Shown piece by piece: positions 1 through 6,511 of a stretch of 24,304 nucleotides of DNA. Origin of the DNA: a virus; IMG/VR virus record IMGVR_UViG_3300048091_000259, positions 1 through 24,304 of that record. One strand, written 5' to 3'. Both the position numbers and the translations under genes were made by a program. Numbering within the stretch: the first letter of the stretch is position 1; each line of letters opens with the position of its first letter. The notes beneath the pieces were generated by a model, which worked only from the letters and a program-made list of their open reading frames with translations, had not been told where the DNA came from and made no database searches.

Positions 1-183
1 CATACCTGCGCCATTATCCTTCGCATTATACTCCGCCGCCTCCGTTTCCGCATACGTCTGCAGCTCCGTTATATTCGTACGTAGACGCTTAACTTCCGCA
101 GTCAATTCCGCGATCCGCGCCGTATAATACGCTTCCGACTGCTGCGTAACCTCCATCATTCTCTGCGCAAATGGATCGTTCAT
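1..183 (-). CDS. hypothetical coiled-coil protein (C-terminus outside window)
   Basis: The frame starts at ATG 183 (MNDPFAQRMMEVTQQ) and stays open to the window edge, so 61 residues are visible and the 3' end is missing. An AGGTGA Shine-Dalgarno lies about 4-9 bases upstream, and the start follows the stop of the 192-542 gene by a few bases, so the two form one operon. Residues about 15-50 show a heptad-like pattern rich in E, A, L and R (for example IAELTAEVKRLRTNITELQ), as expected for a helical coiled coil. I do not recognise the family; the function is unknown. Its place at the head of the leftward operon suggests a small early phage protein. Confidence 0.7.
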   Translation of the reverse strand, partial: MNDPFAQRMMEVTQQSEAYYTARIAELTAEVKRLRTNITELQTYAETEAAEYNAKDNGAGM

Positions 184-191
184 CGCGTCAC

Positions 192-542
192 CTACTCCGA
201 AGCTACTGGCGCGGAACATGCCGCCAGCGCAGGAAGTATCGCGGACGTTATAGCGTTATTGAGTCGCGCAGTCTCCTTCGTATACTCGACAACTAAGTCC
301 GCAATTGTACGCGCCTCCGTTGCGTTATTCACGTCACGTACGATCGCGCTCCGTACTGCAGACGCCAGGCCGTCCGATGTTAGCGGATAGTAACCGATAG
401 GGCGCCAGTCTTCGCGTATCTCAACGCCCATTTCCGGCTTATACCACGGTGAGCGCGTCGGGTCTACGAGGTGGCGGCGCTGTAAGGTGAACTGCGTATC
501 GTCCGCAGCTAGAGCGTAATTCGCGGTTATCGTAACGTTCAT
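192..542 (-). CDS. small hypothetical phage protein, early region
   Basis: This is a 116-residue protein starting at ATG 542 (MNVTITANYALAADD). I chose this start over an in-frame ATG at 578 because GGAGGAGG sits 8 bases upstream of 542 and nothing comparable precedes 578. The pattern is a short beta-rich N-terminus, a PTRSPWYKP stretch, an EIREDWRPIGYYPLTSDGL segment and a helical C-terminus. It resembles the small phage proteins of unknown function that describe a gene-product pair of beta strands followed by WxxxGYYPxL; I cannot assign a family with certainty. It is the first well-marked gene after the 543-1124 non-coding control region and is followed directly by the 1-183 gene. No signal peptide or membrane segment is visible. 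Confidence 0.75.
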   Translation of the reverse strand: MNVTITANYALAADDTQFTLQRRHLVDPTRSPWYKPEMGVEIREDWRPIGYYPLTSDGLASAVRSAIVRDVNNATEARTIADLVVEYTKETARLNNAITSAILPALAACSAPVASE

Positions 543-618
543 ATTTCGTTCCTCCTCCGAATGTGTAAAATAGTGCAAACGATTTGGCGCGCGGTCACTA
601 CCTGATGAAAATTACGTG

Positions 619-647
619 TTGACTTACGTGGCGTGCTCCGTTATTTT
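619..647 (+). promoter_or_regulatory. sigma-A-like promoter, rightward
   Basis: TTGACT (619-624), a 17-base spacer and TATTTT (642-647) give 5/6 and 4/6 matches to the -35 and -10 consensus. No plus-strand gene with a ribosome site follows within 1 kb, so a transcript from here would be non-coding or antisense to the early leader. Confidence 0.4.
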
Positions 648-657
648 AATGATCTTT

Positions 658-720
658 TCTTTAAAGATTTAAGTACTTAAGACCTTAACTCACTTAATAA
701 TCACTATGTTCTTATTAAGT
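658..720. repeat. cluster of three AT-rich dyads
   Basis: Three perfect dyads lie in 63 bases: TCTTTAAAGA (658-667), TTAAGTACTTAA (669-680) and ACTTAATAA (692-700) paired with TTATTAAGT (712-720) across 11 bases. CTTAA also recurs as short direct repeats at about 677, 684 and 693. Such clusters serve as repressor operators or as parts of replication origins; which one cannot be decided here. Confidence 0.6.
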
Positions 721-1124
721 TCGTACGCTTAGAGACCGAAAAACCCGTTTATCGCGGTATATTTAACATATAAGGAACCGCGTGGACCTTAAAAGATAAA
801 AGAATAACACCGTACAACTCGCCGCGCCGCCCGCGTATGTTTCGCGCTCACCTCTCGTATAGGATCATCCACGTAATTTCCACACGTTTTAGGCTCGTTA
901 GGGTATCGGAGGTATTATCGGAACCCCTACGGTACTGGACGCGGTAATTATAGTGGAAAATCTGTGGACGTTTTACGTCCCGCTAATTCCGGTGTGCCTC
1001 CGCTATAGAACTTTATACCGCCAACGATCTGCTAAGGAGTATTCGCGTTACAAAAAATAGTTCTAAGCGCGTAATATGCAAATAGTGCAAATACCTATGG
1101 TTGACTCGGGATTGGCTACGCTAA

Positions 1125-1226
1125 CTACTCATGCTGATCATCCTCCTCCGCGTTGTAAAGGCCGAATGAAAACGCGATAATACCGACCGCGCATACACAT
1201 AACCAAACGATGAAGAACGTGTCCAT
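1125..1226 (-). CDS. putative 33-aa single-pass membrane peptide
   Basis: ATG 1226 opens a 33-codon frame ending at TAG 1125. The product begins MDTFFIVWLCVCAVGIIAF, a continuous hydrophobic stretch of about 20 residues, followed by a short polar acidic tail (NAEEDDQHE). This N-in or N-out single-span plan with a charged tail is typical of tiny phage membrane proteins. Weak point: the nearest purine-rich site (GGAAGGGG) is about 14 bases before the ATG, longer than usual. A promoter-like pair lies at 1323-1352. Another frame over the same DNA encodes an arginine-rich product that looks unnatural. No function can be assigned. Confidence 0.4.
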   Translation of the reverse strand: MDTFFIVWLCVCAVGIIAFSFGLYNAEEDDQHE

Positions 1227-1289
1227 AAGTACAACGTCATCCCCTTCCGTAGAATTTGCGTTATGGTACGGTAACGATGGCCGATTCCA

Positions 1290-1420
1290 TTTCGCACACA
1301 TTACCGTAAAATTATTTCGCCTATACTATTGATACCTGCTCATAGTACGCAAACCTGGGACATTGCCCTTACACTTACATAGTCGTTCGTCGATCGCGTT
1401 TCGCACACTTTCCGTAAAAT
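1290..1420. repeat. two ~22-base direct repeats flanking a promoter-like site
   Basis: TTTCGCACACATTACCGTAAAAT starts at 1290 (1290-1312) and a near copy with one deletion and few changes lies at 1399-1420; TTTCGCACAC and CCGTAAAAT are shared exactly. The copies are about 109 bases apart, close to ten helical turns, and sit on either side of the -35/-10 pair at 1323-1352. They are good candidates for operator half-sites of a looping repressor or for activator sites. The rest of 1227-1420 shows no gene. Confidence 0.5.
1323..1352 (-). promoter_or_regulatory. possible leftward promoter
   Basis: Read on the minus strand: TTGCGT (1352-1347), an 18-base spacer and TAGTAT (1328-1323). It lies between the two direct repeats and upstream of the 33-aa ORF. 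The matches are moderate. Confidence 0.3.
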
Positions 1421-1456
1421 AAAAAAAAAACGGACACCAACGGAGGTTAGTCCGTT
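1421..1456 (-). terminator. intrinsic terminator after the DUF4177 gene
   Basis: On the minus strand AACGGAC (1456-1450) pairs with GTCCGTT (1435-1429), with a partial inner stem, followed by an uninterrupted run of ten T. It lies 24 bases past the stop codon of the gene at 1480. Confidence 0.85.
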
Positions 1457-1479
1457 AAGTGCCCGTTATTGTCGCTGCG

Positions 1480-1671
1480 TTACGCGCTCTTACGTTTAAA
1501 TGTCGCGAAGAGCTCATCGGAAGAACCTACGCCGGCTCCCGCAGTGTACATCGATACTAGTTCCCAACCTTCCGCGCCTAAACGGTTGAGTTCCTCGTCC
1601 GGATTAAACTTCGATTTAAATACGCCTTTACGTTCGAATCTGATCGTTTGATACTCGAATCTGTCCGCCAT
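1480..1671 (-). CDS. DUF4177 family protein
   Basis: The 63-residue product starts MADRFEYQTIRFERKGVFK and contains NRLGAEGWELVSMYTAG followed by a final strand (DELFATFKR). This strand, charged helix with AEGWELV, strand plan is the signature of the DUF4177 family, small proteins common in Firmicutes genomes and their phages and of unknown function. GGGGAG lies 10 bases before ATG 1671 and a terminator follows the stop, so it appears to be a single-gene transcript. Its upstream leader overlaps the plus-strand ORF at 1675-1836. The family call is from memory of the motif, not from a search. Confidence 0.85.
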   Translation of the reverse strand: MADRFEYQTIRFERKGVFKSKFNPDEELNRLGAEGWELVSMYTAGAGVGSSDELFATFKRKSA

Positions 1672-1674
1672 TAA

Positions 1675-1836
1675 ATGATCGCTCCCCGTGATTTAGATAA
1701 ACTGCGTATACATATAAATTCTCCGTATATTTGCCAATTTCCTTTACGTTGTATTGCGTGTCCTATTTGCGGTAAAATAACGTTAACTGTAGGAGCTCGT
1801 ATAAACTGTGTACCTACGCCTGAATGTACGTATTAG
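1675..1836 (+). CDS. putative 53-aa zinc-ribbon protein (topoisomerase C4 finger-like)
   Basis: ATG 1675 begins a 53-codon plus-strand frame ending TAG 1834-1836. The C-terminal half reads CIACPICGK, then GARINCVPTPECTY at the very end. The CPxCGK ... C ... PEC-x-Y spacing closely follows the C4 zinc finger found at the C-terminus of bacterial topoisomerase I, and its codons (CGT, ACG, GCG, TTA) match the neighbouring genes. Against it: there is no Shine-Dalgarno before the ATG, a stop codon (TAA) immediately precedes it, and the frame lies over the leader of the divergent DUF4177 gene. A weak rightward promoter (TTTACG 1627-1632, 17-base spacer, GATACT 1650-1655) would give a very short leader. 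Nucleic-acid binding would be the natural guess. Confidence 0.42.
   Translation: MIAPRDLDKLRIHINSPYICQFPLRCIACPICGKITLTVGARINCVPTPECTY
1709..1737 (-). promoter_or_regulatory. possible promoter of the DUF4177 gene
   Basis: On the minus strand TTGGCA (1737-1732) is followed after 17 bases by TATGTA (1714-1709). The -35 is strong and the -10 weak. It would drive the 1480-1671 gene and lies inside the zinc-ribbon ORF on the other strand. Confidence 0.35.
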
Positions 1837-1849
1837 GCACCGTAAAGGT
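1821..1849 (+). repeat. arm-type-like repeat, left of the attP core
   Basis: The segment begins TGAATGTACGT and ends AAAGGT; it aligns over its whole 29 bases with 1963-1990, allowing a few one- or two-base gaps (about 22 identities). The two copies are direct repeats and flank the tRNA-like core at nearly equal distances (about 30 and 38 bases), as expected of integrase arm-binding sites. Confidence 0.45.
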
Positions 1850-1878
1850 TTCGGAGTGCAAACCGTGACCCATACGCT

Positions 1879-1924
1879 TTCCTAAACTATGCGTCGCGGG
1901 TTCGAATCCCGCCGTGGCGCGCCA
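1879..1924 (+). other. attP: attP candidate: 3' half of a tRNA-Arg(CCT)
   Basis: The segment starts with TTCCTAA, a textbook 7-base anticodon loop with anticodon CCT (T32 T33 C C T A A). It continues with a 3' anticodon-stem arm, a 5-base variable loop GCGTC, then GCGGG-TTCGAAT-CCCGC (1896-1912), a perfect T-arm, and ends CGTGGCG-C-GCCA. The 5' half of a tRNA is absent: no proper anticodon-stem partner or D-arm precedes it. Phages that use tyrosine recombinases commonly carry exactly this tRNA 3' half as the attP core beside int, and an int gene begins 118 bases downstream. There is one base more than expected between the T-arm and CCA, so the identity with the host tRNA may stop within the acceptor arm. 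Confidence 0.7.
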
Positions 1925-1962
1925 TACCTAAAATCCGCGCTATATCAACGTTTTACCTACGT

Positions 1963-1990
1963 TGAATGGTACGTTCAGGCAACGGAAGGT
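1963..1990 (+). repeat. arm-type-like repeat, right of the attP core
   Basis: Partner of 1821-1849 in the same orientation (TGAATGGTACGT ... GGAAGGT). Just to its left an inverted repeat CAACGT-N7-ACGTTG spans 1946-1964. Both would suit integrase or excisionase binding. Confidence 0.45.
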
Positions 1991-2006
1991 ACACAGTCTA
2001 ATACGT

Positions 2007-2038
2007 CCTCCTACGATAACTATACGTAGGGGGTTTTT
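2007..2038 (+). terminator. intrinsic terminator between attP and int
   Basis: CCTCCTACG (2007-2015) pairs completely with CGTAGGGGG (2025-2033; one G-T pair) over a 9-base loop and is followed by TTTTT. It lies 82 bases after the tRNA-like core and 3 bases before the TTG start of int. The 3' arm (AGGGGG) is also the only Shine-Dalgarno-like site for int, so folding would hide the int ribosome site. Confidence 0.85.
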
Positions 2039-2041
2039 CGT

Positions 2042-3079
2042 TTGGATCCGAGAAAAGGACGCGCGGTCGTTAAAGGTAACCGCAGTATTGTACGCACGAA
2101 CCTGGCGCTCAGCCTTAGCGACGCGTTCGATTTGTTCTATAACGCTAAGAAGGCGGCCGGCATGCGTGGTAGTACGCTATTTAATGATTACACCGTCAAC
2201 TGGCGTTATTTCCGCGAGTGGGTGGACGAATCTTATCCACATGTTAATAACGTTGATGAAGTGACTTCCGAACATATACGCGATTACGTAAATTATATGA
2301 GCACTAAGCCGAAATATAGCGGTATTGAAAATCGCGAGACGGGCAAAACTTTATCTCCGTATACAGTCACGGCCCGACTGCGCACAATACGTACGTTCTT
2401 CAACTTCATAACCGGAGAGGGCTTGTTGAACGTTAACCCAATCCGCAATATAAAGAATCCGCGTTTCGATAAGGAAGATAAGGAAACGTTCAATGACGAT
2501 GAGTTACGCAGCCTGCTATCGGCACCAGACACGACAACTTACGCCGGCCTACGCGATCGTACGTTAATGCTATTACTCGCGGACACTGGTATGCGTATTA
2601 ATGAAGCGCTCGGTTTAAGTAAGGAGCACGTTAACTTTAAAGGCCGCTGTATCGAGTTACCGGCGTCGATGAACAAGAACCGGAAGCCGCGTGTTGTCCC
2701 AATGTCCGCAGATGCTACACGCGAGCTTCTAACGTTAATTAACGAGAACCAACGCTATTTCGATACGGACTACATCTTCCTCGCTAACTACGGCGACCCG
2801 TTACGCGCGGACCACTTCCGTAAACGTCTGAAGGAACACGCGAAGAAAGCCGGTATCGATCTTGCGCTGGCCCATCCGCATCAGTTCCGTAGTTACTTCT
2901 GTACAACGTTCTTGCTTAACGGAGGCTCGCTATTCGTACTGCAACGTATTGTCGCGCACGCCAATATCGAGACTACACGCGGTTACGCTAAGATGAACGA
3001 TACGCACGCGCTCGAGCAACACTCGCAGTTCTCACCGTTGGCCCGACTCGGCTTATCGCGTGTCAATAAACGTAAGTAA
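2042..3079 (+). CDS. int: tyrosine recombinase (phage integrase, XerC/D-like)
   Basis: The 345-residue protein catalyses site-specific recombination between attP and a host att site. Residues about 20-135 form the SAM-like core-binding domain (FNDYTVNWRYFREWV, LSPYTVTARLRTIRTFFNF). The catalytic domain follows, with all six expected residues visible: R185 (DTGMRINEAL), K215 (KNRKPRVVPM), H280-x-x-R283 (HPHQFRS), H306 (IVAHANIETT) and Y315 (TTRGYAKM). The start is TTG 2042, because an in-frame TAG lies at 2027 and no other start occurs before residue 41; AGGGGG is 8 bases upstream, inside the terminator stem. It is one of only three plus-strand genes proposed here and converges on the ATPase gene at 3092. 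No N-terminal arm-binding domain of lambda type is evident, so arm contacts would have to use the first 20-odd basic residues. Confidence 0.95.
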   Translation: MDPRKGRAVVKGNRSIVRTNLALSLSDAFDLFYNAKKAAGMRGSTLFNDYTVNWRYFREWVDESYPHVNNVDEVTSEHIRDYVNYMSTKPKYSGIENRETGKTLSPYTVTARLRTIRTFFNFITGEGLLNVNPIRNIKNPRFDKEDKETFNDDELRSLLSAPDTTTYAGLRDRTLMLLLADTGMRINEALGLSKEHVNFKGRCIELPASMNKNRKPRVVPMSADATRELLTLINENQRYFDTDYIFLANYGDPLRADHFRKRLKEHAKKAGIDLALAHPHQFRSYFCTTFLLNGGSLFVLQRIVAHANIETTRGYAKMNDTHALEQHSQFSPLARLGLSRVNKRK

Positions 3080-3083
3080 ACGT

Positions 3084-3115
3084 AAGGGGAGTTATTCAGC
3101 GTTCTTCCTCCCCTT
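3084..3115. terminator. hairpin between convergent int and ATPase genes
   Basis: AAGGGGAG (3084-3091) and CTCCCCTT (3108-3115) form a perfect 8-bp stem, followed by AATTT on the plus strand. It overlaps the last codons of the ATPase gene. The U-run is weak, so it may act as a bidirectional barrier rather than a strong terminator. Confidence 0.5.
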
Positions 3116-5542
3116 AATTTCCGCTAACACTTCCTTCGTCGGACGCCCGTACGCGACTATGTGTTTCTTCGTAAGGAACTCGTTATCCATCGTTTTATAC
3201 CGATCGGCTACGCGAGGCAATGCGTCTGCTACGAATGGCGGCGCATAGTCTCCGGTGCTGTCGAGCCATACTCCGATATACTGGAACGCCTTCGTAGCCT
3301 CGAACGCTTGCTGCGGATCGGAAAACGTTTGTGAAAGATACGGCATCAACCGTTTATACGCGTCCTGGTTCGTATTCTTAAACAGGTGCCAGTTAACGGA
3401 GGACGACAGTAGAATATCGACGAAGCCCGGATACTTTTTAAATTGCGCGAAGTTGTGAAATGCCATAACGAGCATCAACTTATACTTCGGTGCTTCGCTG
3501 AATATGCGCTCGATAAAGTGTACGAGTCCGGACGATAGGAATTGATGCGGTTCATTAAGCGCGAGTATCGTACCGGCACCGCGGCCATCGAGCGATAGTT
3601 TAATGAGGAACGTTAGCATGACGAGCCAGTATCCGAATATCTTTTTGACCGGTTCGGGCATCGCGGCTCCCTGCGGCATCTTTATACGGAGGATAACGAT
3701 TTTACCTTCGCTAATCCATTTGTATAAATCCGCGGTTGGGTTCGGGTTCGGCTGGCAAAACATCGGCTTCGAATACTCGCGGTTAGCTAACATGTCGATA
3801 CGCCGAATAACCGGAGCTGCGAGTTGCCCTTGCCTACCGGACATCATGCCGCCCTTATCCGTCAACGAATCGTAATCGCGCCATAAATCCATATCGAGTG
3901 TATCGTCGAGGTCCGCGATCTTCTGCTTACGGAATTTTTGCTCTTTGAACATCCGCTTCATATCCTGCAGGTCGCCCATCGTTGCTTTCGCAGCTTCGCG
4001 GCAAAACTCCTGCGTCTGAAACTTATCTTCGTCACCGTCCGATAGTAAAAAGTCCGAAAGGTACTCGCTCACTAAGTCCGCAGCGATACGCGGATCCTCT
4101 ACGTTACGGAATATCGTCTGCAGTCCGAGATAGAACGCGTACGCCGTATTGGAGAAGTCGAGGTCGATAACGTGTTCCGGTTCGATATGATCACGTATTG
4201 CGTTCGCCATTCCTTTCCAGTGACCGTCGCTATCCTTATTCCGCTCGTCGATAAAGTCCGGTATGATCGCGCCTATCTTGTGCTTACGGAATGACTCGAC
4301 GATAAAGTTGATCATCGCTTGGTCCTTACCCATACGCGGCGACCCCGAGAATGCGCGGAAAGTGTACAGTAGATTCGCGTTCTCCGTCGGTACGTGTACG
4401 TTATGCGCTACGCCTCTATCCGTAGCCGTGCCCGCGAGTATACCGCTATCATCCAGGAACACACGCGGCAACTCGATCTCAACGCGGCGATTCGACGACA
4501 TTACATCCGCAAACTCCGTTTGTAACTCCGCGGTCGGTAGCTGCGTTAATTTGCCGAGCTCATCAACGGACATAAGTGCCGGAGTGAAATCGCGGCGACT
4601 ACGTATATTAACCTTCACGGATTCCAAGCGGTTATCACCCGCGAGCGATCCGTAAGCGCCCGCCACCGATCGCGCTAGCATACCGCGTTTCACTTCGTCC
4701 TCTGCCGTAACTGCATATCGGATTGACGTTTTGAATACGGGAAGATTCCGTTTGTTCTTCGTCATCGCGGACAGATCACCGTTAACTAATAACTCCGCGC
4801 GCTCAGGATTACGGAAGACTGGCCGCTCCAGCTTCGTACGCGAACCACCTCCGTGGAAGAACGTTTTCTCAATGCCGGACATCACGTCGTTAACGAGCGC
4901 GTGTACTTCGTAAATAACGTACACAATTCCGTTAGCTACGCCGCGTAATACCCGTAGCGGATCAACACCGGCTTTCTGCGGTACACCGCCTTTATCCCAC
5001 GTTTCCCATGCGTAATCAACTAACCGTTTCCACTTACCGCGGCCGACCGTTTCCTGGCGAATGAACAATGTGACTGCTTCGTTACCGGCCAGTTCGTTCA
5101 TAACGGATAACACTTCGCGCACCGGCGTTTGCTGTTCGTTATAGCGGAAGTCGAGCGAGAACATATCGTGACGTTTATACTTTAGCGCGTATAAGTCCGT
5201 ATTCTCTTCCGCGTATAGTTCGAAGTCATCGACGATCCCGAGCGTAGATTTCCTCCACTGTTCGTGATTGCGGAATTTCGTACGGAACGCATCGGCAAAC
5301 TCGGCGGGCACCCTAACGTAATAGGCGATGGATTCCGTAGTCAGCTTCGTAATCCAATAGAAGTCCGGTGCTGGCTGCGTTACGATACGGAAGCCTTCAC
5401 GTTTCGGTTTTTGTCTAACGCTGAGCAGTTCGTATAGTGCGCGTTGGAAGTTACGGGACGCCGAGTTGAGTACGGTATGGTGCGGAATAATTCGATACGT
5501 TACGTACACACTAGTCGCCTCCTTTACGTAAAAGCGCTCCAT
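3092..5542 (-). CDS. VirD4/TraG- and FtsK-HerA-like DNA-translocating ATPase
   Basis: About 816 residues from ATG 5542 (MERFYVKEATSVYVTYRII); an in-frame ATG at 5584 would add 14 residues lying over the upstream gene, and neither has a clear Shine-Dalgarno. The N-terminal 400 residues resemble the N-domain of conjugation-type ATPases, with PALMSVDELGKLTQLPT just before the motor domain, as in VirD4-like proteins. A P-loop follows, AFSGSPRMGKDQAM (K406), but with D where S/T is usual. The later hydrophobic strand TILALNEPHQFL takes the Walker B place with N in place of the usual D, and VMAFHNFAQF resembles a sensor motif. A hydrophobic stretch (residues about 200-220, VANGIVYVIYEVHALV) may anchor it. 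It is the last gene of the 3092-6743 operon. I infer a hexameric DNA pump; cargo unknown. FtsK/SpoIIIE-type genes near lysis genes are, from memory, known in Gamma/Wbeta-like Bacillus phages. Confidence 0.82.
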   Translation of the reverse strand: MERFYVKEATSVYVTYRIIPHHTVLNSASRNFQRALYELLSVRQKPKREGFRIVTQPAPDFYWITKLTTESIAYYVRVPAEFADAFRTKFRNHEQWRKSTLGIVDDFELYAEENTDLYALKYKRHDMFSLDFRYNEQQTPVREVLSVMNELAGNEAVTLFIRQETVGRGKWKRLVDYAWETWDKGGVPQKAGVDPLRVLRGVANGIVYVIYEVHALVNDVMSGIEKTFFHGGGSRTKLERPVFRNPERAELLVNGDLSAMTKNKRNLPVFKTSIRYAVTAEDEVKRGMLARSVAGAYGSLAGDNRLESVKVNIRSRRDFTPALMSVDELGKLTQLPTAELQTEFADVMSSNRRVEIELPRVFLDDSGILAGTATDRGVAHNVHVPTENANLLYTFRAFSGSPRMGKDQAMINFIVESFRKHKIGAIIPDFIDERNKDSDGHWKGMANAIRDHIEPEHVIDLDFSNTAYAFYLGLQTIFRNVEDPRIAADLVSEYLSDFLLSDGDEDKFQTQEFCREAAKATMGDLQDMKRMFKEQKFRKQKIADLDDTLDMDLWRDYDSLTDKGGMMSGRQGQLAAPVIRRIDMLANREYSKPMFCQPNPNPTADLYKWISEGKIVILRIKMPQGAAMPEPVKKIFGYWLVMLTFLIKLSLDGRGAGTILALNEPHQFLSSGLVHFIERIFSEAPKYKLMLVMAFHNFAQFKKYPGFVDILLSSSVNWHLFKNTNQDAYKRLMPYLSQTFSDPQQAFEATKAFQYIGVWLDSTGDYAPPFVADALPRVADRYKTMDNEFLTKKHIVAYGRPTKEVLAEIKGRKNAE

Positions 5543-5856
5543 ATTACGCCGGCCCAAAACGTTACGAACAGGCGGCCGACCCATTTACTACCGGAACCAA
5601 GTAGCGGACCGACCATCATGCCGACCGCGCAGACAACGATCGCAAGCGTAGCGATTTCCGCAGAGTTTGCGTTAAGTACATCCGCAATATGACGCGCCCA
5701 ATCGGTCAACGTATTAGACGCGGGCTTAACGAGTAACTCCGCTTCCTGACCGATGAACCAATCCGCAAAGTTGTTCAGTTGTTCCATAATACCGCCGCTG
5801 CCCGTAGGATCCGCCGTACCACTCGGTAACGCTATTCCGTTTATTCGAAGTATCAT
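5524..5856 (-). CDS. small membrane protein, conjugation-like module
   Basis: Starting at ATG 5856 (MILRINGIALPSGTADPTGSG), with GAGG about 11 bases upstream, this gives 110 residues; a GTG three codons earlier is possible. A polar N-terminal half with a predicted amphipathic helix (MEQLNNFADWFIGQEAELL) is followed by two closely spaced membrane segments: ATLAIVVCAVGMMVGPLLG and WVGRLFVTFWAGVIWSAF. It overlaps the ATPase start by 19 bases, so the two are probably translationally coupled. The hydrophobic hairpin recalls small inner-membrane subunits such as VirB3 or VirB2, but the resemblance is only in plan. I do not recognise a family. Confidence 0.75.
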   Translation of the reverse strand: MILRINGIALPSGTADPTGSGGIMEQLNNFADWFIGQEAELLVKPASNTLTDWARHIADVLNANSAEIATLAIVVCAVGMMVGPLLGSGSKWVGRLFVTFWAGVIWSAFT

Positions 5857-5870
5857 CGCGACCACCGCCT

Positions 5871-6221
5871 CTATAACGTTTTCAGCCAGTTACGGATATC
5901 TAACGCGTGCCGAACGATAATGTATCCGATGCTGCCGCCCATGATAAACTCGATCGCCTTCGTACGGTTATTGAACATCCACGTAACACCTGCGTAAACG
6001 ATGACGCCCGCACATAACCAATCCGCGATATTGAGTACCGTAGTGAATATCTCCGTCCACGTATCCTGACCGGGCACCGCAGCGAATACGGTCGTCGGCA
6101 ACAACGCGAGGTGAACGGTGCTGGCCGTTTTCTTAACGAGACTTAGCGTAGACTTACGCTCTTTTTCAACGACATTACCGCGCATAAAGTCCGCCCAATC
6201 TAACGCTTCAATACGTGCCAT
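5871..6221 (-). CDS. VirB2/TrbC-pilin-like small membrane protein
   Basis: Start ATG 6221 (MARIEALDWADF) has AAGGA nine bases upstream; an earlier ATG at 6230 would overlap the previous stop as ATGA but leaves no spacing for that site. The basic N-terminus (VEKERKSTLSLVKK) leads into a hydrophobic stretch ending LLPTTVFAAVPGQ, which looks like a signal sequence with an A-x-A cleavage point. Two membrane helices follow: VLNIADWLCAGVIVYAGVTW, then a short polar NNRTK turn and AIEFIMGGSIGYIIVRHAL. Long leader, two glycine-containing helices and a short cytoplasmic loop are the layout of VirB2/TrbC T4SS pilins, so I call it pilin-like by architecture; there is no sequence match I can prove. Confidence 0.7.
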   Translation of the reverse strand: MARIEALDWADFMRGNVVEKERKSTLSLVKKTASTVHLALLPTTVFAAVPGQDTWTEIFTTVLNIADWLCAGVIVYAGVTWMFNNRTKAIEFIMGGSIGYIIVRHALDIRNWLKTL

Positions 6222-6226
6222 AACGA

Positions 6227-6511
6227 TCATTCCTTCCCGGTATAATTACGCTTTGTAGCGGGAACTATATTAGAAAAAGGAGGCGACGTTTTATGCACTT
6301 TCTCATCGGACTTATTATCGGAGGAGCTATCGGAGCTCTTACGCATCTGTTCTAAAACTCGGCGGTTCTCGGCGTGCATATGTGCGTATAGGACCGCCTT
6401 TACATATCCGCTAAAATTGTCTCCGCAGTGATCCATTACCCATTTCAGTAACGCTTCCTGGTTCGGATTCTTCGCGTTGAAGCTGACCGCTTTCCGTACG
6501 TACTGATCCAT
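6227..6511 (-). CDS. ribbon-helix-helix-like small protein (ParR/CopG-type plan)
   Basis: ATG 6511 (MDQYVRKAVSFNAKNPNQE) with GGAAGGGG about 8 bases upstream gives 94 residues; a longer frame from 6553 lacks this site. Residues 5-45 show the order beta strand (RKAVSFNAK), helix (PNQEALLKWVMDHC), GDN turn, helix (FSGYVKAVLYAHMHAENRR), which matches ribbon-helix-helix DNA-binding proteins such as CopG, AlfB and ParR. The C-terminal third is serine- and lysine-rich and probably disordered. In conjugative plasmids such proteins bind oriT or centromere repeats, so it is a candidate specificity factor for the ATPase downstream. No ParM- or TubZ-like filament gene is present in the window. Confidence 0.7.
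   Translation of the reverse strand: MDQYVRKAVSFNAKNPNQEALLKWVMDHCGDNFSGYVKAVLYAHMHAENRRVLEQMRKSSDSSSDNKSDEKVHKTSPPFSNIVPATKRNYTGKE

Follow-up and report, generated by a model that had tools for sequence, protein, structure and literature searches.

How can an integrase be made from a gene whose only ribosome site (SD) is built into a hairpin that would also end the transcript? The question is raised by the window, the whole 24,304-nucleotide stretch of DNA analysed here, in which a tyrosine integrase gene (int) directly follows such a hairpin (table 1). Because the window is a virus record and carries the 3' half of a tRNA alone (~1878-1924; ARAGORN detected no complete tRNA in it), we take it to be attP and not an integrated copy. 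A sequence-only reading of the locus had interpreted the hairpin as a terminator that also hides the SD. The sequence supports this interpretation, yet it is incomplete, giving no route to int expression. We propose that the hairpin belongs to a two-part RNA switch, the second part of which is situated at the far phage end, a reading to which we assign a probability of roughly 0.7.

The hairpin in front of int

The hairpin stem consists of nine pairs, one of them G-U, and is followed by TTTTT, CGT and the TTG codon of int (2042-2044). An in-frame TAG (2027-2029) falls inside the 3' arm, and thus TTG 2042 is the earliest possible start. The sole SD-like run, AGGGGG, lies 8 nt before the TTG and entirely within the 3' arm. 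The sequence therefore bears out the coordinates previously given for the hairpin and the int start (2007-2044), as well as the claims that the 3' arm holds the only SD of int and that the terminator stands three bases before the TTG; in relatives, the SD has the same position and the stem is kept.

At the sequence level, the GC-rich 9-bp stem with a U-run immediately 3' is that of a terminator, and the SD is paired in a stable stem, its predicted accessibility being 0.00 in transcripts that lack the complementary arm described below. The hairpin is, on this basis, a predicted intrinsic terminator with the int SD built into its 3' arm. Folded in isolation it reaches -12.9 kcal/mol, which is moderately above chance, given that 12 of 200 shuffles of 2000-2060 fold equally well (z -1.8). 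When the upstream side was shuffled and the 3' arm held fixed, none of 200 shuffles matched the stem score of the window. A simple terminator scan overlooked this hairpin because its loop limit was 8 nt and the loop has 9 nt, and Rfam gave no match in window positions 1-3500.

Table 1. Features of the window from the putative far-end promoter to int
Feature	Position	Strand	Sequence, basis or remark
Candidate far-end promoter P3'end	1749..1778	+	TTGTAT, 18-nt spacer, TAAAAT
Anti-arm	1787..1812	+	CTGTAGGAGCTCGTATAAACTGTGTA; complementary to 1991-2016
Partner of 1969-1980	1818..1829	+	GCCTGAATGTAC; inverted repeat, 92% complementary
attP core: 3' half of tRNA-Arg(CCU), anticodon loop to CCA	1878..1924	+	Sequence
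Partner of 1818-1829	1969..1980	+	Inverted-repeat search
5'-arm flank, likewise predicted to pair with anti-arm	1991..2006	+	Duplex prediction
Hairpin 5' arm, anti-SD like	2007..2015	+	CCTCCTACG; sequence, folding, stem conservation
Hairpin loop	2016..2024	+	ATAACTATA; folding
Hairpin 3' arm, with int SD at 2028-2033	2025..2033	+	CGTAGGGGG; sequence, folding, relatives
T-run of predicted terminator, doubling as SD-to-start spacer	2034..2038	+	TTTTT; sequence
int, tyrosine integrase, 345 aa, TTG start	2042..3079	+	PF00589, E 1.3e-33

Integrated relatives and the displaced host terminator

A pattern-based scan of viral contigs with int, and near and distant DNA searches of a phage collection, returned no match, so relatives were taken from genome searches. 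One of them is a prophage of Paenibacillus sp. BK033 (L002), whose int is 90% identical to that of the window. Here an intact tRNA-Arg(CCT) gene and its promoter are followed, all co-directional, by the conserved hairpin and then by int. In the BK033 hairpin (CCTCCTACG / CGTGGGAGG) G-U and A-U pairs are exchanged at two stem positions, and the int SD is GGGAGG. A second copy of the tRNA 3' end is found 62.5 kb further on, at the far att site (L004), with a terminator-like hairpin (CCCTTGATCATCAAGGG-TTTTATTTTTT) directly 3' of it, and in sister genomes most intact tRNA-Arg(CCT) genes have a terminator of their own just downstream. The layout of both prophage ends, in combination with the sister-genome terminators, shows that integration displaced the host terminator and that the phage hairpin now stands in its place. 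Two further proposals of the sequence-only reading thus agree with the integrated arrangement, namely that the host tRNA promoter reads toward int after integration and that the phage supplies a substitute for the displaced terminator. From this we infer that the hairpin would keep int silent in the lysogen.

The attP core of the window is near-identical to the BK033 tRNA and to its second copy. At position 1889, within the anticodon stem, the core reads AACTATGCG and the BK033 tRNA-Arg AACTGTGCG; possible explanations are a different tRNA in the host of the window phage and a crossover 3' of 1889.

The distribution of the arrangement was assessed in 93 int homologs, 27-100% identical, with 292 ORFs from BK033 and the window as a control set. 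An SD-terminator was defined as a stem with the SD in its 3' arm, followed by a T-run and the start codon, with a score of at least 20. Such a structure precedes 49 of the 93 int homologs versus one of the 292 control ORFs, and for 46 of the 49 no more than 2 of 200 shuffles did as well when the 3' arm was held constant. It is found in 44 of the 51 ints that lie after a host tRNA (Arg, Thr, Ser, Leu, Ala or Pro, whole or partial) or after an erpA/HesB-like 3' end, versus 5 of the 42 others (Fisher p 1.4e-13, an optimistic value, the sequences being related). L031, L058, L081 and L024 are misses by threshold, judged by eye, and L025, scored among the 42 others, actually follows tRNA-Arg. In an alignment of 16 leaders of the Arg, Thr and Ser types, the 9-bp stem is paired in 143 of 144 cells (44-60% with sliding partners as a control), two stem pairs having changed on both sides. 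A class-level search recovered the same design in more elements beyond the family sample, together with some tRNA-adjacent ints that do not have it. Among 36 other tyrosine recombinases sampled from a PF00589 list, a single SD-terminator was present; it belongs to one member of the only pair situated shortly after a tRNA.

Nine elements (L007, L036, L041, L045, L047, L049, L057, L061 and L064) have an erpA/HesB-like sequence upstream of int; they target an iron-sulfur protein gene of the erpA/HesB-like kind, whose product has the C-terminus ..CGCGSSF.., inserting at its 3' end and recreating the gene end. In L014 and L015, after tRNA-Ser(TGA), the int SD lies outside the terminator-like hairpin, a looser form of the same layout. 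In L068 (Pro) and L078 (Ala), int is preceded by a tRNA 5' half alone, broken near the anticodon, and the tRNA does not look restored at the int end.

The genes adjoining int on its other side also deserve mention. The minus strand of 3092-6230 encodes an 830-aa ORF without a Pfam match, a 113-aa ORF and a 119-aa ORF, the last with a sub-threshold match to TrbC/VirB2 pilin (E 5e-5). Relatives of the 830-aa and 113-aa ORFs are also kept beside int in BK033. The window phage has an SU10-like major capsid protein, and the region, as judged from its sequence, resembles a conjugation-type module in a tailed phage.

A complementary arm at the opposite phage end

The attP order provides a clue to how int might be released. 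In one continuous stretch, a far-end promoter candidate is followed by a sequence complementary to the 5' arm and its flank (the anti-arm), the tRNA 3' half, the hairpin and int. The promoter candidate of the window (8.3 bits in the matrix of our script; predicted start ~1785) is kept in the BK033 prophage. The predicted duplex between 1787-1812 and 1991-2016 reaches -27.1 kcal/mol, compared with -12.9 for the hairpin, and none of 200 shuffles was as good. Among 5,392 windows on both strands, 1787-1812 is the top partner of 1991-2016, its own complementary strand excepted, and an independent repeat search recovers the inverted repeat 1789-1802 / 2001-2014.

To place this observation in a comparative frame, the far att sites of 14 tRNA-type elements were considered along with two intact attP sequences, one from the window and one from Bacillus phage phi18-2 (L054). 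Of the 16 tRNA-type elements, 15 have a promoter-like match that is followed, 4-21 nt on, by the complement of the element's own 5' arm and flank, mostly about 85-128 nt before the core. The promoter-like match has a constant place in the 14 other elements, in the majority as TATAAT, and that of the window is weaker than most. The sole exception is L030/L211, where the anti-arm is absent; its int has an internal stop and the element, of 3.9 kb only, has probably decayed. Individual shuffle tests are weak in some elements (16/200 in L034, 22/200 in L044). Across elements, cognate arms and anti-arms average -27.0 kcal/mol versus -19.5 for permuted pairs, and none of 20,000 permutations reaches the cognate mean; within groups, 2 of 5,040 (Ser) and 35 of 5,040 (Arg/Thr) do so, all these figures taking the elements as unrelated and retaining shared ancestry within sub-lineages.

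The erpA-type elements have very different arms, each with a matching complement at its own far end. The far end of L061, CGTCATAGAGGCC, matches its arm GGCCTCTATGACG; CGCTGTAGAGG matches CCTCTACAGCG in L036, and CACAAGCTTGG matches CCAAGCTTGTG in L047. For eight erpA elements, only one of 40,320 permutations, the true pairing itself, attains the observed mean. The automatic duplex of L064 falls off the usual place; visual inspection places a partial match after its TATAAT box.

An alternative scenario, which we regard as unlikely, is that of a one-way lock. The hairpin would end the tRNA transcript and hide the SD of any read-through RNA, the complementarity at the far end would be idle, and int would be expressed by leakage. 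The hairpin and its genomic context fit this scenario, and leaky expression could be enough for an integrase. Nevertheless, it leaves unexplained why 15 tRNA-type elements have an anti-arm at the same place, covarying with the arm.

The inverted repeat might instead be a feature of the DNA, with arm-type sites for Int or Xis in the P and P' arms, one of them overlapping the hairpin; this we consider rather improbable. The arm sites used by tyrosine integrases lie to the left and right of the core, and the further inverted repeats that flank it here (1818-1829 / 1969-1980) may well be Int sites, or may prolong the long-range helix. The erpA-type elements also conserve a TTGTGRATYACG-like motif next to the hairpin, and in the ungapped complementary segments only 23 of 67 mismatches are G-U, a share that was set aside as a discriminator between RNA and DNA because it is not decisive. 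However, a protein site would be shared, whereas arms and anti-arms vary among related integrases and stay complementary within each element, and this change under maintained complementarity makes the DNA-site explanation less likely. The anti-arms are, moreover, found directly 3' of the promoter-like match, in the transcribed part. DNA-site and RNA-pairing roles of the repeat could also coexist.

A third possibility, resembling the protection from impinging transcription of IS10, IS50 and IS200 and in our view very improbable, is a weak int promoter inside the hairpin yielding its own translated RNA without the 5' arm. In its favour, promoter scores averaged across 44 elements peak at the inner end of the 5' arm, and two erpA-type elements have TATAAT there, but the window scores 5.0 bits, most tRNA-type elements are near zero, and AT-rich loops could inflate the score. 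With a low mean and strong matches in few erpA-type elements only, a promoter inside the hairpin was dropped as a general feature.

Folding predictions are consistent with the RNA switch that we favour. When the transcript ends just ahead of the 3' arm, the predicted probability of 5' arm pairing to the anti-arm is 0.58-0.91 in all 15 elements. For the window transcript extended through the U-tract, inclusion of the left arm lowers the probability of the terminator stem from 0.99 to 0.09 and raises SD accessibility from 0.00 to 0.63; other elements extended through the U-tract gave 0.05 to 0.93. At equilibrium the terminator is still preferred in several attP transcripts, and with 60 nt of int added its probability is 0.79 in the window and 0.07 in BK033, and in the window the switch is visible only if the transcript stops at the U-tract or short of the 3' arm. 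Because equilibrium folding can still favour the terminator, the switch would hinge on which segment is transcribed first. The prediction is thus of a bistable switch with an outcome set by transcription order, as in attenuators.

The promoter and anti-arm share a transcript with the hairpin and int only in the excised circle (attP). In the circle, the far-end promoter would be active and the anti-arm would be transcribed before the hairpin; it would then capture the 5' arm, so that no terminator forms and the SD is freed, and the Int thus made would integrate the phage. Integration would place the whole prophage between int on the one side and promoter and anti-arm on the other. Only tRNA read-through would remain, terminated just before the int start codon, any leaked read-through RNA would still conceal its own SD, and the tRNA transcript would receive a replacement terminator. 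Since integration parts the anti-arm from int, Int would mainly be made when it is able to integrate; we infer from these sequences that the circle expresses int and that integration locks it. The model accounts for the Int needed for integration and not for that needed for excision on induction.

The SD-embedded terminator, the displaced host terminator, and the anti-arm with its covariation are evident in the sequences, and the comparative support drawn from them is strong. A broader formulation, toward which we lean with somewhat less assurance, is that of a split RNA switch joined by circularization only, which controls both termination and ribosome access of the integrase, has spread through elements of Bacillota (at tRNA-Arg, -Thr, -Ser, -Ala and the erpA-like 3' end), and has halves that coevolve by pairing. 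An element behind a host tRNA inherits a strong promoter aimed at its integrase. With this design, the product of recombination would silence the enzyme that made it, no repressor being needed; the tRNA would gain a new terminator, and Int would be confined to DNA yet to integrate.

Two other observations concern the far end. Right of the attR core, L224, L225 and L230 each show a further hairpin, complete with SD, T-run and ATG, such as would be expected if a second element sat in tandem at the same tRNA-Ser; in that case, the promoter and anti-arm of the first element would face the int of the second. In the window, a small ORF at the far phage end (~1484-1670, minus strand) reads away from att, and its translation, examined by eye, resembles DUF4177 proteins.

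Comparison with known systems

In phage lambda, sib lies downstream of int and destabilises int RNA in attP. As with sib, att recombination here separates a cis RNA element from int and would thereby alter int expression; unlike sib, the element lies upstream of int and would activate it in attP. The intS gene of KplE1 similarly adjoins a tRNA in the same direction, with control tied to attL, where the int promoter overlaps Int sites and is repressed by Int (PMC2951348). In contrast, the window has no strong promoter-like match between core and int (best 5.8 bits in a consensus scan, which can miss promoters).

The combination of a terminator with a hidden ribosome site on the entry side of a mobile element is shared with IS200, with which IS10 and IS50 are grouped. 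The available passages on IS200 present a terminator and an SD-hiding stem-loop as two separate structures and do not describe a far-end anti-arm (PMC3196728), whereas a single hairpin here would serve both functions. In Tn916, likewise of Gram-positive bacteria, host read-through is stopped by an insulating terminator (T1) close to one end of the element, and antitermination by a cis-acting RNA (canT) follows excision (PLoS Genet 2024; PMC11658703). According to that paper, canT is processive, acts on heterologous terminators and belongs to a system controlling replication and transfer genes, while the anti-arm is specific to one arm and the gene concerned is an integrase.

The nearest experimental parallel for int silence in the lysogen, by analogy, is ICEKp1 of Klebsiella (Nucleic Acids Res 2026; PMC13023037), with which ICEclc and ICEEc1 are grouped for state-dependent int control. 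In ICEKp1 the host tRNA terminator is displaced and int is tRNA-driven, stem-loops in the int 5' UTR lower the full-length tRNA-int RNA (deletion of SL3 raised activity by 194.2%), and in the circle int is transcribed from a promoter at the opposite end of the element. Repression by the int leader stem-loops was relieved experimentally by a 15-bp stretch taken from the 3' end, and base pairing was only proposed by the authors as the basis of this relief (PMC13023037). Both systems have int 3' of and parallel to the tRNA, a displaced terminator and a terminator-like leader stem-loop. The far-end promoter has a candidate counterpart here in promoter-like matches at a constant place, and relief is predicted from the covarying anti-arm and favourable folding. 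ICEKp1 is, however, a conjugative element of Proteobacteria, whereas phages and other elements of Bacillota are concerned here; its relief sequence of 15 bp compares with an anti-arm of 20-26 nt that covaries across many elements. The compact terminator with the SD as its 3' arm also differs from ICEKp1, the text of whose paper, as searched, does not mention the ribosome (PMC13023037).

Since ICEKp1 (2026) and Tn916 (2024) operate in related ways, the general logic is already known. A literature search with few subscription journals covered found no paper on a switch composed of such a fused hairpin and an anti-arm. The covariation across many elements provides evidence for a pairing that was merely proposed in ICEKp1, and phi18-2 of Bacillus subtilis, a common laboratory host, is a candidate system in which the switch could be tested. 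With regard to the systems above, the novelty consists in a single hairpin that unites terminator and SD, in the long and specific anti-arm, and in the covariation across many elements of Bacillota.
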